The notes beneath the pieces are model-generated. The model was given only the letters and a program-made list of their open reading frames with translations. It searched no databases and was not told where the DNA came from. Shown here one piece after another: positions 10,236-14,847 of a DNA stretch of 53,441 nt (position 1 is the stretch's first letter; every line of letters begins with the position of its first letter). Origin of the DNA: Cyanobacteria bacterium SW_9_44_58 (GTDB lineage Bacteria > Cyanobacteriota > Cyanobacteriia > Cyanobacteriales > Rubidibacteraceae); contig PXPI01000086.1 of assembly GCA_003021905.1 (NCBI GenBank), positions 1 to 53,441 of the forward strand. The letters run 5' to 3'. Both the position numbers and the translations under genes were made by a program.

Positions 10236-11765
10236 CTAAGCGCGATTGGGGTTGCGAGTGGTTTCGTCTCCCACTTTCTGGAAAGCGCCCCATTCCACTT
10301 GTTCATCTAAGTCAGCTTCAATACCGGCGAAGACATCGCGATAGAGGGTACGGGAGCCGTGCCAAATATGGCCAAAGAAGAACAAGAGGGCAAATACAGC
10401 GTGACCATAGGTAAACCAACCGCGAGGACTGGTACGGAATACCCCGTCCGAATCCAGGGTTTCTTTGTCAAACTCAAAGACTTCTCCCAATTGCGCCTTC
10501 CGCGCATATTGCTTAACTTTATAGGGATCTTCAAAGGTTTGACCGTCTAAGGCACCGCCATAGAAACTGACGGTAACTCCCATTTGCTCAATGCTGTATT
10601 TGGATTCAGAGCGACGGAAGGGAACATCCGCCCGAACGACGCCATTTTCGTCTTCCAAGATAATGGGGAAGGTTTCAAAGAAGTTGGGAATCCGACGAAC
10701 CGTAAGTTCGCGGCCTTCTGCATCTTTAAATACGGGATAGCCTAACCAAGCTTGGGCAATGCCATCTCCTTGGTTCATGGGACCAACCCGGAATAAACCG
10801 CCCTTGGAGGGGTTATTGCCAACGTAGTCGTAGAATGCCAGTTTTTCCGGAATTTGCGACCAGGCTTCAGAACGGCTATATCCCTGCGCCATGTAGTTAT
10901 CCACACGACGTTCAATTTCTTCTTGGAAATAGCCTTGGTCCCACTGATAACGGGTGGGGCCAAATAGTTCAATGGGGGTGGTGGCGCTGCCATACCACAT
11001 GGTTCCGGCCACAACAAACGCCGCAAAGAAAACGGCTGCAATGCTGCTGGAAAGGACGGTTTCAATGTTCCCCATCCGCAAAGCTCGATACAGTCTTTGC
11101 GGGGGCCGTACTGCCAAGTGGAAAATCCCGGCAATAATGCCGACAATTCCTGCGGCAATGTGGTGAGCGACAACCCCACCGGCATTAAAGGGATTAAAGC
11201 CTTCCGGTCCCCATTCTGGGGCCACGGGTTCCACATGCCCTGTCAAGCCGTAGGGGTCCGATACCCACATTCCTGGGCCAAATAAGCCCGTCAGGTGGAA
11301 AGCGCCAAAGCCAAAGCAGAGTAATCCTGCTAAGAATAAGTGAATGCCGAACATTTTGGGCAAGTCAAGGGCAGGCTCGCCGGTGCGGGGATCGTAGAAT
11401 AAGTCTAAATCCCAATACACCCAGTGCCAGCAAGCCGCTAAAAACAGCAATCCCGAGAGGATAATATGCGCGATCGCGACCCCTTCAAACGACCAGATAC
11501 CTGGATCAACTGCCGTTTCGCCGGTGACACTCCAACCGCCCCAAGATTCTGTGACACCTAAGCGCGCCATAAACGGCAACACAAACATGCCTTGTCGCCA
11601 CATGGGGTTTAAAACTGGATCACTGGGATCAAAGGTAGCTAATTCAAATAACGCCATTGATCCTGCCCAGCCTGCAACTAGCGCAGTGTGCATTAAATGC
11701 ACAGAAATTAGTCGTCCTGGATCATTTAAAACAACCGTGTGAACTCGATACCAAGGTAGTCCCAT
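10236..11765 (-). CDS. psbB: Photosystem II CP47 chlorophyll apoprotein
   Basis: The 509-residue protein begins [19 protein letters not shown] and has the six membrane helices and large lumenal loop E typical of CP47. His residues in [39 protein letters not shown] and [16 protein letters not shown] bind chlorophyll. It is the inner antenna of PSII and is located in the thylakoid membrane. A strong AAGGAGGA ribosome site lies 9 bp before the ATG. Length and motifs are normal; it heads the psbB-psbT unit. Confidence 0.98.
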
Positions 11766-12208: not shown

Positions 12209-14779
12209 TTAGACAATCAGTTGCCAAAACAGAACAGTTAACGCCAATATCGCTAAATGTTGTGGCAAAAGCGACCAAAACGAACGACGAAGAATTTTTT
12301 GCGTCAAAATGACGGATAAAGAACTGCCAACAAACAAGGTGACCCCTTGTAAAAATTGAAGGACTGCCGGATGGGCCACTGCAATAGGCAACCCTTCGCC
12401 GCTAAAGCCAAACGTTGCAAATGCCACTGGAATAAGACGCCCCCCTTCACCTAAACCTAAATCCAGATAATGGGCTAAGTTTCCCACTAAAACCAGGGGT
12501 AAATAACCGTAAGCGCTTTCTACAAACGGACGCGGTCTAATGTGAAGCCCTTTGGGATTAATCCAGGTTTGGAACTGATGGAGCAGCCCCATGGTTACTT
12601 GCGCCAATAGCGGCAGCAAAGCGGGTAAACTCAATAAAGCAACAGACACTGTCGCATGAACCCAGAAATTCTCTAAGTTCCAATTGAGGCCCAAATCACT
12701 TTGAATTTCGGGGAGACGGTGTAAAAAGACCAAATCCAATAATAGGAGCAATAACGCCACTTCATAAGAGCGCGGTTTATGGGTAGTCCATAATTCAATA
12801 CCAGGGGGCCGTAAATTCACTTCCACTGAACGATGGGGACAAGCTTTGAGACAAGTCATGCACAGAACACAGTCCCGGTTATCGTCCAGTTGCGCAGGGT
12901 GGGAATATAAGGGACACCCCCAGGTTTCTTGTCCTTCCCCTTTGGCAGGACCGCCTTTATAACATTGGTAGGTGGTGCATTCTGCGGAACAAGTGCCCTG
13001 TTGCGCTCGCAGTTCGGTCATGGACAGCTTGGCAAACATGCCGTTCATGCCGCCGATGGGACAGAGATAGCGACACCAAAACCGGCGTTCAAACAGCAGC
13101 GAAAAGATAATTGCCCCAGCAGTAATGAGAAGCAGTAAGCAAGCGGATAAGTAAGCAGTATTTTGCAAATTCCAGAGTTCTTCCCATAGTAAAATGAGAG
13201 CAAATAACCCGAATAAGAACCAACCGCCCCAACGTTCTGCCGATTGACGGGGCCAACGTTTCAGTTCTCGGGGAAACAACCACAGGGAAATTTTCTGCAC
13301 TAATTCCCCGTAAATCATAAAGGGACAAACGGCGCACCATAAGCGTCCCACAAATGGAAAAGCCATGAGTACCCCTGGCCACCACCAGGCCCAGAATAGA
13401 TTGAGAGCAAAGTTTTCCGAACGGGTTTGCGGGCCTAGAAATAAAACAGCTACCACAAAGGTAAACGCGGGCAAGACAAACCAGTAATTCAAACGGTCCG
13501 GCCACCAAGGGCTGCGGAGAAACCGGCGGAATCGAGGGGAAATATTTAATAAGTTTAAGCGCAGTTGTTTTTTCTTGCTTTGGGAAGGCCAGAGAATTTC
13601 TTCAGTGAGGGCTTGTCCTTCCGGCAGCTGCAAAATTGCGCGTCGGATAAGATTTTCTAATTCCGTGAGGTTATTGGGAAAATCGTAGGCTTGTAGGCGA
13701 CGAATCGCTTCTAGGGTGACTTGTGGCTTCGGCAACCCTTTACTACGACAGGTTAAACTAATGTAATACTTAACTTGGTCTTCTAAGTCCCGTTTGCGCA
13801 CCCGTAACGGGGGAACTTTAATCCGTTGTTCCACTACCGAATCCAATTCGGGAACGGTTTTTTCCGAAATGAGAATGATTCGGGCTTGAGAAGTTTTTGG
13901 CGGCGGTGCGGGTTCATCGGCGCGGGGAACCGGGGTATAGGTGTTATTTTTAAGGAGTTGCGCGATCGCGGGACGCAATTGTTCATCTAGTTCTTGTACG
14001 TTATTCAAAACTAGCGTCCCCTCTCCTAAGGCCTCGATTAACCCAAATTTGCCGTTGGCACGGCCAAATAATTCGGCACCGCTAACTTGTAGAGTACTGC
14101 AATCGATTTTAATAATGGGTTCTCGCCGCCAGGAGGAACCAAAATGAATCAGGGCAGCAGCGTTGTCTTTGCCTAAGCCCGGTTCTCCAAAAATTAAGAC
14201 AGATTGGCGGTTGTCTGAGGCTTGTTTAATTTGTTGCCGCAACCGCACTGCGTAACGGCTTCTGCCAACAATTCCCCGCCTGGCTTTGGTCACTAAGTAG
14301 GGACGCAGAATATAGGCACGTTCTTGTTCAAAATCTAATTGTGAGGAAACTAGGGCCAATTCTTCCGCTAACTGTTGCGAAAATACTTGTGTAATTTCGG
14401 GATATTTTGCAATTAAAGCCCGCATTTTTTCGCTATTGATAAACCAAAACCGACACTCGCTTTGGGTAATGACTGTTTCCCGCGTCGGCTGATTGAGAAT
14501 TAGCGATTGCAGATTGATAATACTACCGGGAAGTAAACTTAAATTCGGCGATAACTTCCCAGCCGTTTTGGTTGTCAATTTTGGCGAGGGTTGACTTTCA
14601 ATTTGTCCTGATTGGAGAATGTAAATTCCTAACGGTTGCGTTTCTGCTTTAACTAAAACTTGGTCGGGACCGGCGATTCGTTCTTCCAATAGAGGCGCGA
14701 TCGCGCTCAGCACATTTTCCGATAAAACCGTCAATGGGGTCCTTTCTTGCAACCAAGTTACTAATTGGGGAACATCCAT
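12209..14779 (-). CDS. CNB domain - AAA+ (sigma54-activator-like) - membrane 4Fe-4S fusion protein
   Basis: Numbering is from the upstream ATG at 14809; the ATG at 14779 is preferred for its GGAGGG site. Domains in order: cyclic-nucleotide-binding-like (about 20-160); NtrC-type AAA+ (about 180-410) with Walker A GEPGLGKD (208-215); membrane segments (about 445-575) with NapH/CcoG-like CAVCP (492) and CRYLCP (579); a CxxCxxCxxxCP cluster (647-657); and more membrane helices to the end. The AAA+ part has ELFGRANGKFG where GAFTGA belongs, and VLNN instead of a Walker B with Asp-Glu. It may be a redox or ligand sensor rather than a sigma54 activator. It stands alone. Confidence 0.85.
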   Translation of the reverse strand: MDVPQLVTWLQERTPLTVLSENVLSAIAPLLEERIAGPDQVLVKAETQPLGIYILQSGQIESQPSPKLTTKTAGKLSPNLSLLPGSIINLQSLILNQPTRETVITQSECRFWFINSEKMRALIAKYPEITQVFSQQLAEELALVSSQLDFEQERAYILRPYLVTKARRGIVGRSRYAVRLRQQIKQASDNRQSVLIFGEPGLGKDNAAALIHFGSSWRREPIIKIDCSTLQVSGAELFGRANGKFGLIEALGEGTLVLNNVQELDEQLRPAIAQLLKNNTYTPVPRADEPAPPPKTSQARIILISEKTVPELDSVVEQRIKVPPLRVRKRDLEDQVKYYISLTCRSKGLPKPQVTLEAIRRLQAYDFPNNLTELENLIRRAILQLPEGQALTEEILWPSQSKKKQLRLNLLNISPRFRRFLRSPWWPDRLNYWFVLPAFTFVVAVLFLGPQTRSENFALNLFWAWWWPGVLMAFPFVGRLWCAVCPFMIYGELVQKISLWLFPRELKRWPRQSAERWGGWFLFGLFALILLWEELWNLQNTAYLSACLLLLITAGAIIFSLLFERRFWCRYLCPIGGMNGMFAKLSMTELRAQQGTCSAECTTYQCYKGGPAKGEGQETWGCPLYSHPAQLDDNRDCVLCMTCLKACPHRSVEVNLRPPGIELWTTHKPRSYEVALLLLLLDLVFLHRLPEIQSDLGLNWNLENFWVHATVSVALLSLPALLPLLAQVTMGLLHQFQTWINPKGLHIRPRPFVESAYGYLPLVLVGNLAHYLDLGLGEGGRLIPVAFATFGFSGEGLPIAVAHPAVLQFLQGVTLFVGSSLSVILTQKILRRSFWSLLPQHLAILALTVLFWQLIV

Positions 14780-14847
14780 CTCCTTCCCTCCATCTTCGTT
14801 GTAGTTCATATTTTAAAGTGACTCTTTCAAACTAGGGATTAAGTTTT

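Follow-up and report, generated by a model that had tools for sequence, protein, structure and literature searches.

Activators of sigma54-dependent transcription are textbook motors bound to one partner. Among membrane iron-sulfur proteins, NosR is a polyferredoxin tied to regulation of the nos genes, and NapH is defined by two cysteine pairs of the form CxxCP/CxxxCP together with a ferredoxin-type motif. According to a published survey (PMC3162934), TyrR, DhaR and HupR, all without the GAFTGA motif of sigma54 activators, are sigma70-dependent activators, VpsR also lacks GAFTGA, and sigma54 and its activators are absent from all 29 cyanobacteria sequenced by 2011. A second study (PMC4877007) describes VpsR as binding promoters and as activating only when c-di-GMP is bound. 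In the family described here, the motor domain is widely retained within a bacterial class that lacks the partner sigma54: its catalytic parts are gone, its sequence is under selection, and it is joined to a membrane Fe-S protein.

The window (the whole stretch of cyanobacterial DNA that was analysed, 53,441 nucleotides) contains an intact open reading frame on the minus strand, at 12209-14809, that encodes 866 aa. Because 31 of 70 homologous reading frames begin their alignment at residue 11 of this longest frame, the favoured start is at 14779, the one first proposed, and the gene is delimited on the basis of homologue ends as 12209..14779. All features described below lie on this same strand. 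In-frame TGA codons were flagged in several homologue genomes and are assumed to lie upstream of the true start. At five other loci (L130, L165, L183, L188 and L199) the gene is spread over at least two reading frames with the break in or near the AAA+ part, which may reflect a frameshift, an assembly error or a true split.

Pfam models, each above its curated cut-off, identify a cyclic nucleotide-binding (CNB) domain (cNMP_binding, residues 48-136, 14402..14668, E 8e-9), the sigma54-activator-type AAA+ core (Sigma54_activat, PF00158, residues 180-297, E 7.5e-15, 55.5 bits against a cut-off of 20.2), the AAA+ lid (AAA_lid_14, residues 336-413, E 7.7e-9) and, in two stretches, Fer4_5 (E 8e-9). 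Core and lid together, also recognized by fold matches, span residues 180-413 (13571..14272). A simple hydropathy scan finds eight hydrophobic stretches in the membrane module, residues 440-861 (12227..13492). Within this module lies an Fe-S region with 12 Cys (12839..13336, from the homologue alignment), followed by a less conserved C-terminal helical region, residues 671-866 (12212..12799), which has no convincing solved match. The Pfam assignments and the 12 conserved Cys bear out the domain order originally read from the sequence: CNB, AAA+, membrane module, Fe-S. No Fis-type or other DNA-binding domain is found in the protein by Pfam at up to E 1.

A phmmer search of the PDB with the window protein puts VpsR at the top (E 5e-18), ahead of NifA and FleQ, and NorR- and NtrX-like activator models in NCBIfam match at no more than 80 bits, against cut-offs of 476 and 600. 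In an AlphaFold2 model of the whole protein (mean pLDDT 86.3, pTM 0.59), the AAA part compared with the solved activators FleQ, NtrC1, NtrX and PspF gives Z of 22-25 in the top rows. Six further PF00158 matches, at 21-35 bits, occur in the genome that holds the window.

The homologue set used to follow the motifs of this head comprises 152 proteins, 149 of them distinct, drawn from 70 loci, two plasmids and a further 80 loci kept from 565 confirmed in a contig scan with cyanobacteria-specific patterns. GAFTGA occurs in none of the 149, of which 143 cover its place; in the window protein that place is taken by ELFGRANGKFG (residues 246-256, 14042..14074), the replacement originally reported. 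The Walker B motif reads VLNN (residues 267-270, 14000..14011), again as originally reported, and the pair that would be acidic reads NN in 120 of the 143 rows and DE in none, the remaining pairs being DN (7), SG (4), DQ (3), TN (2), DC (2) and also SN, NK, ND, AN and EN. When the window protein is aligned with NifA and FleQ, the GAFTGA stretch is absent and NN faces their DE. A further stretch, not remarked on originally, which we take to be the arginine finger of sigma54 activators, has lost some 11 residues relative to FleQ, and its Arg is not conserved. Losses so consistent across the family, in the loop and in the acidic pair alike, are the product of neither chance nor sequencing error. 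An assembly artefact was also considered and set aside, full-length homologues being present in single-contig genomes.

Collecting homologues had been proposed as a check on the original prediction, and the outcome favours it: GAFTGA is in none of the 149 homologues, and none has both GAFTGA and DE. The expectation that normal ATP hydrolysis would not occur is likewise supported, by the absence both of acidic Walker B residues and of the arginine finger, and we infer from the sequences that the head is an apparently dead ATPase. Among the marks of a sigma54 activator, the PF00158-type fold is present by Pfam; the GAFTGA motif, the DE pair, an accompanying rpoN gene and a DNA-binding domain are not.

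The sigma54 DBD and CBD domains (PF04552, PF04963) are absent from the genome that holds the window, in a search that was positive in 4 of 14 control genomes, and no credible rpoN was found among 145 genomes of the class. Two partial DBD matches in those 145 genomes, one of 38 positions in a 94-aa frame and one of 33 positions in a 58-aa frame, are taken as spurious, the first of them scoring just above the cut-off. The absence of rpoN from this genome, which the original prediction had named for checking, is thus confirmed. Its more general statement that cyanobacteria lack sigma54 is upheld by the 145 genomes and agrees with the 2011 survey (PMC3162934). With no GAFTGA in any homologue and no rpoN in the genome, sigma54 activation is not to be expected, as had been claimed.

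Homologues are numerous within the class. In a survey of 292 genomes across the phylum, 123 have a match of any kind and 73 have one at E 8e-56 or better; all 73 belong to the window's class, one of them (G284) by way of a C-terminal remnant only, and the remaining 50 of the 123, in other classes, have weaker, partial matches. Among 291 genomes of the class itself, 209 match at E 0.001, 201 strongly (E <1e-100) and 8 weakly. No match was listed for eight genomes of genus g11 in the phylum survey, nor for two genomes of family f25, of 1.7-1.8 Mb, in the class survey. The family is therefore old and widespread in the cyanobacterial class. The search for relatives outside cyanobacteria covered plasmids and the scan with cyanobacteria-specific patterns, in which all 80 kept loci are cyanobacterial except L143, on a contig labelled Candidatus Gracilibacteria. 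The gene at L143 belongs to the window's own clade and is 67% identical to the window's, and the contig is probably a misbinned cyanobacterial one.

A quick tree of 111 proteins, based on the membrane module only, arbitrarily rooted and accompanied by a long-branch warning from the tool, separates three clades. Clade A, which holds the window protein, has SH-aLRT 84; clade B, whose members share 38-40% identity with the window protein, has SH-aLRT 100, as does clade C, which is made up of family f25 and lacks the CNB domain.

The tree bears on the fate of Walker A, which in the window protein reads GEPGLGKDN (residues 208-216, 14162..14188). The original statement that Walker A is kept applies well to the five proteins of the window's genus that were read (four have GEPGLGKDN and one GEPSSGKDN) and to the lysine (214 in the window protein), which all of the 142 rows have. 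It does not extend to the residue before this lysine, which is Gly in 43 of the 142 rows and something else in 99, with Glu in 89. On the tree, the Gly/non-Gly label changes at least 13 times. Clade B retains Gly in 10 of 10 tree rows, with an intact P-loop such as PPGSGKT, and has a Walker B Asp in 6 of the 10. From the motif counts and the tree, loss of the sigma54 loop and of DE extends to the whole family, and the P-loop change is repeated and patchy.

These observations cut both ways for the original suggestion of a nucleotide-binding sensor, by which the head would bind ATP, ADP or another nucleotide without hydrolysing it and report to the Fe-S module. The invariant lysine keeps binding possible, and could mean that nucleotide still binds; with their intact P-loop and, in 6 of 10 tree rows, a Walker B Asp, clade B proteins may bind it, and Gly is intact in the window's genus, as read, too. 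However, replacement of Gly in most rows, chiefly by Glu, should disfavour phosphate binding, and a position that has changed so often is unlike a constrained nucleotide site. Nor does clade A keep the residues by which FleQ binds c-di-GMP: in alignments made by eye, the position of the FleQ Arg that follows Walker A holds Ala in 109 of the 116 rows, and where FleQ has ExxxR the rows show Y (115) and L (108). VpsR (PMC4877007) binds c-di-GMP without having all of the FleQ residues, so proteins that lack them may still bind that ligand. Overall we regard a nucleotide-gated redox protein as an improbable reading.

The head is nonetheless under constraint. Mean pairwise identity in clade A, from random pairs among the 116 rows, peaks at 0.80 in the Fe-S region, the most conserved part of the protein, and is 0.60 in the AAA part, 0.56 in the C-terminal region and 0.41 in the CNB domain. 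In 11 of 11 pairs the AAA part has dN/dS of 0.03-0.14, rough values, as AAA dS exceeds 1 in five pairs. The head is under purifying selection and is not decaying. It also persists in lineages without a CNB domain, for which there is no room in the clade C reading frames, in L050 or in seven g62 proteins (L051 and L211-L216; g62 is a genus). All three proteins read from genus g128, each of 1121 aa (L208 343-3705, L209 346-3708 and L210 386-3748), have the AAA part twice; the extra AAA+ sits between the CNB domain and the usual AAA+ and has degenerate motifs of its own. A head that is kept, and even doubled, while lacking catalytic residues is read here as a binding module.

When the CNB domain is aligned to CRP by eye, the Arg of the phosphate-binding cassette is not conserved; position 102 is Glu in 76 of the 116 rows of clade A, which in this eye alignment could be the cassette Glu after a two-residue shift. 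A link with family 2B encapsulins was entertained on the strength of a match at E 1e-6 for the plasmid homologue L071, and was dropped as generic because eight N-termini score alike against CRP, FtrB and Pat models. One genome (G054) has two full copies of the gene (L081 and L084), which share 86% and 72% identity with the window protein. A 58-residue remnant lies near the second copy, and the copy adjoining psbB is the more divergent.

The 12 Cys of the membrane module (492, 495, 579, 583, 607, 611, 616, 632, 647, 650, 653 and 657) are each present in 148-149 of 149 homologue rows and would suffice for three putative 4Fe-4S clusters; they fit the redox role originally proposed. A NapH/MauN-like local match over residues 486-664 scores 46.7-48.5 bits, far below the TIGR02163 cut-off of 213, and the NapH-type Cys pattern is present, as the pairs C492/C495 and C579/C583 and the ferredoxin-type motif C647-C657. 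The membrane half, modelled on its own, reaches pLDDT 84.8 and pTM 0.84; residues 199-243 of that model, which hold most of the ferredoxin-type Cys, are at pLDDT <50. Searches for solved relatives of the membrane module gave a best Foldseek E of 0.5, a best Z of 5.1 (rmsd 3.9, 111 aligned) when VIA-align was run over the Foldseek list, and only ferredoxin-like pieces in a profile search; the absence of a solved match is no proof of a new fold. A stand-alone protein of Deinococcus ficus (WP_027463891.1) is 30% identical over 95% of the module and shares all 12 Cys with the window protein; unlike it, it has neither CNB nor AAA+. On the Deinococcus ficus plasmid (L073 5033-7323) the module follows a His-rich, secreted-looking protein without a Pfam match.

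Gene neighbourhood differs between the clades. Around the clade A genes no neighbour is conserved outside small groups of loci, and the commonest neighbour cluster occurs at 14 of the 122 loci holding a family gene, so genome context is silent on signalling for the window's clade. In the window, the next gene downstream is psbB (recognized by eye; 10236-11765, minus strand), across a 443-bp gap. This pairing was rejected as a general link: it is seen only in the window, at L082 and at the second G054 copy (L084), all of one genus. In clade B, 8 of the 12 informative loci carry a cysteine synthase gene downstream on the same strand, separated by 5-164 bp at seven loci and by 534 bp at the other; the enzymes are 66-78% identical to that of L071. 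The gene is missing at L104, L107, L108 and L112, and L174 ends too early to tell. Elsewhere a cysteine-synthase-like protein was seen near two loci only, in one case 1.2 kb away on the opposite strand and in the other 4.3 kb away and 37% identical. On a Pseudanabaena plasmid the clade B gene is surrounded by DsrE, rhodanese, glutaredoxin and katG genes, and on a conjugative plasmid of Aulosira laxa (L071 3019-14598) it is accompanied by the cysteine synthase gene, an extra petC, and psbA-type and DsbA genes. The clade B context hints at sulfur or redox stress, and carrying it over to the window's clade would be a guess.

This context speaks for a plain electron-transfer enzyme of sulfur assimilation or detoxification, whose membrane module would pass electrons to a sulfur substrate and whose head would help only in assembly or localization, and the existence of the membrane module on its own in Deinococcus ficus fits as well. 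Three of the eight linked loci, however, are from near relatives (Phormidium), as are two of the four unlinked ones (L107 and L108); clade A has no cysteine synthase link; and for such an enzyme the conservation of the head would be needless. We consider a plain enzyme unlikely.

A member of the family has probably already been deleted in Synechocystis. Gene order and annotation together suggest that slr1529 ("ntrX, nitrogen assimilation regulatory protein") is that member. The homologue at L100 has as neighbours genes for CTP synthase, a desaturase, pyridoxamine-phosphate oxidase, ScpA (scpA) and Ffh (ffh), an order assumed here for slr1529 in Synechocystis; the plasmid homologue L071 bears the same ntrX annotation. 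A lookup of the neighbouring locus tags in two papers returned nothing. When 32 putative transcription regulators were screened by deletion (PMC5318462), the slr1529 mutant grew and was set apart in metabolite PCA at 72 h, and was not among the top mutants named by a Euclidean measure. Two other studies list slr1529 at 0.29 after high copper (PMC4182526) and as negative in iron-deprived cells (the first two columns give -0.74 and -1.17; PMC3516471). The original description of the protein as possibly undescribed holds for the architecture, on which a literature search conducted mainly outside subscription journals found no paper; it does not hold for the gene, if slr1529 is a member, as that gene was already annotated and deleted (PMC5318462).

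The ntrX annotation implies a regulator working with the housekeeping polymerase, a GAFTGA-less activator of the sigma70 type like VpsR or TyrR. VpsR is indeed the best PDB match, TyrR, DhaR and HupR set a precedent (PMC3162934), and the metabolite PCA separates the slr1529 mutant (PMC5318462). Yet Pfam detects no DNA-binding domain, the head runs directly into the membrane module, and the deletion data, in which a second measure did not rank the mutant among the top ones, are no test of DNA binding. We think a sigma70-type regulator very unlikely.

To the reading that we prefer, a membrane redox protein with a pseudo-ATPase head repurposed for signalling or partner binding and not for sigma54 activation, we give about an even chance of being correct. 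Its redox half rests on the 12 conserved Cys, and its partner-binding half from a head that is selected yet without catalytic residues. The electron partners, the direction of signalling and the partner of the head are proposed as follows. The C-terminal half would be a NapH-like polyferredoxin trading electrons with a pool in the membrane or the cytosol, for which quinol, ferredoxin or thiol/sulfur compounds are probable. The cytosolic head, a presumed former sigma54-activator AAA+ usually accompanied by a CNB domain, would be past hydrolysing ATP and past touching RNA polymerase, and would serve as a conserved docking and conformational module. Either the redox state of the Fe-S core would alter the binding of the head to its partner, or a ligand of the head would gate electron flow. 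In such a protein, membrane redox state is probably linked to a signal without sigma54. Against signalling, the sole service of the head may be to assembly or stability.

A more specific version, in which the family is a widespread redox transducer whose polyferredoxin senses the plastoquinone, ferredoxin or sulfur/thiol state and relays it through the dead sigma54-type AAA+, is tentative and, in our judgement, rather doubtful. If true, the family would represent a kind of signal protein that arose by conversion of a transcription motor into a membrane redox relay. Membrane redox sensing in cyanobacteria is a long-standing question, and this family, conserved and unexplained in many of them, is widespread and, with a probable Synechocystis deletion in existence, testable at once.

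Compared with described systems, the protein combines parts that are separately familiar. With the activators NtrC, NifA and FleQ it shares the fold of the AAA+ core and lid, its model superimposing on FleQ (6jdi) with Z 24.6 and rmsd 2.4 over 227 aligned residues and on NtrC1 (1ny5_B) with Z 24.2 and rmsd 2.3 over 226; unlike them, it is without GAFTGA, Walker B acids, arginine finger and DNA-binding domain, and it has a membrane module. VpsR, the closest PDB entry by sequence, has likewise had the loop deleted and its Walker B altered (to ND), whereas the window protein has a membrane half and no DNA-binding domain in Pfam. To NosR there is a weak local match (16.8 bits, E 0.0016, against a cut-off of 1000 bits), and unlike NosR the window protein has no FMN domain by Pfam. 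The likeness to NapH/MauN is local, over the Cys region, to which the window protein adds what we take to be an extra set of four Cys and about 200 further aa at the C terminus relative to NapH.
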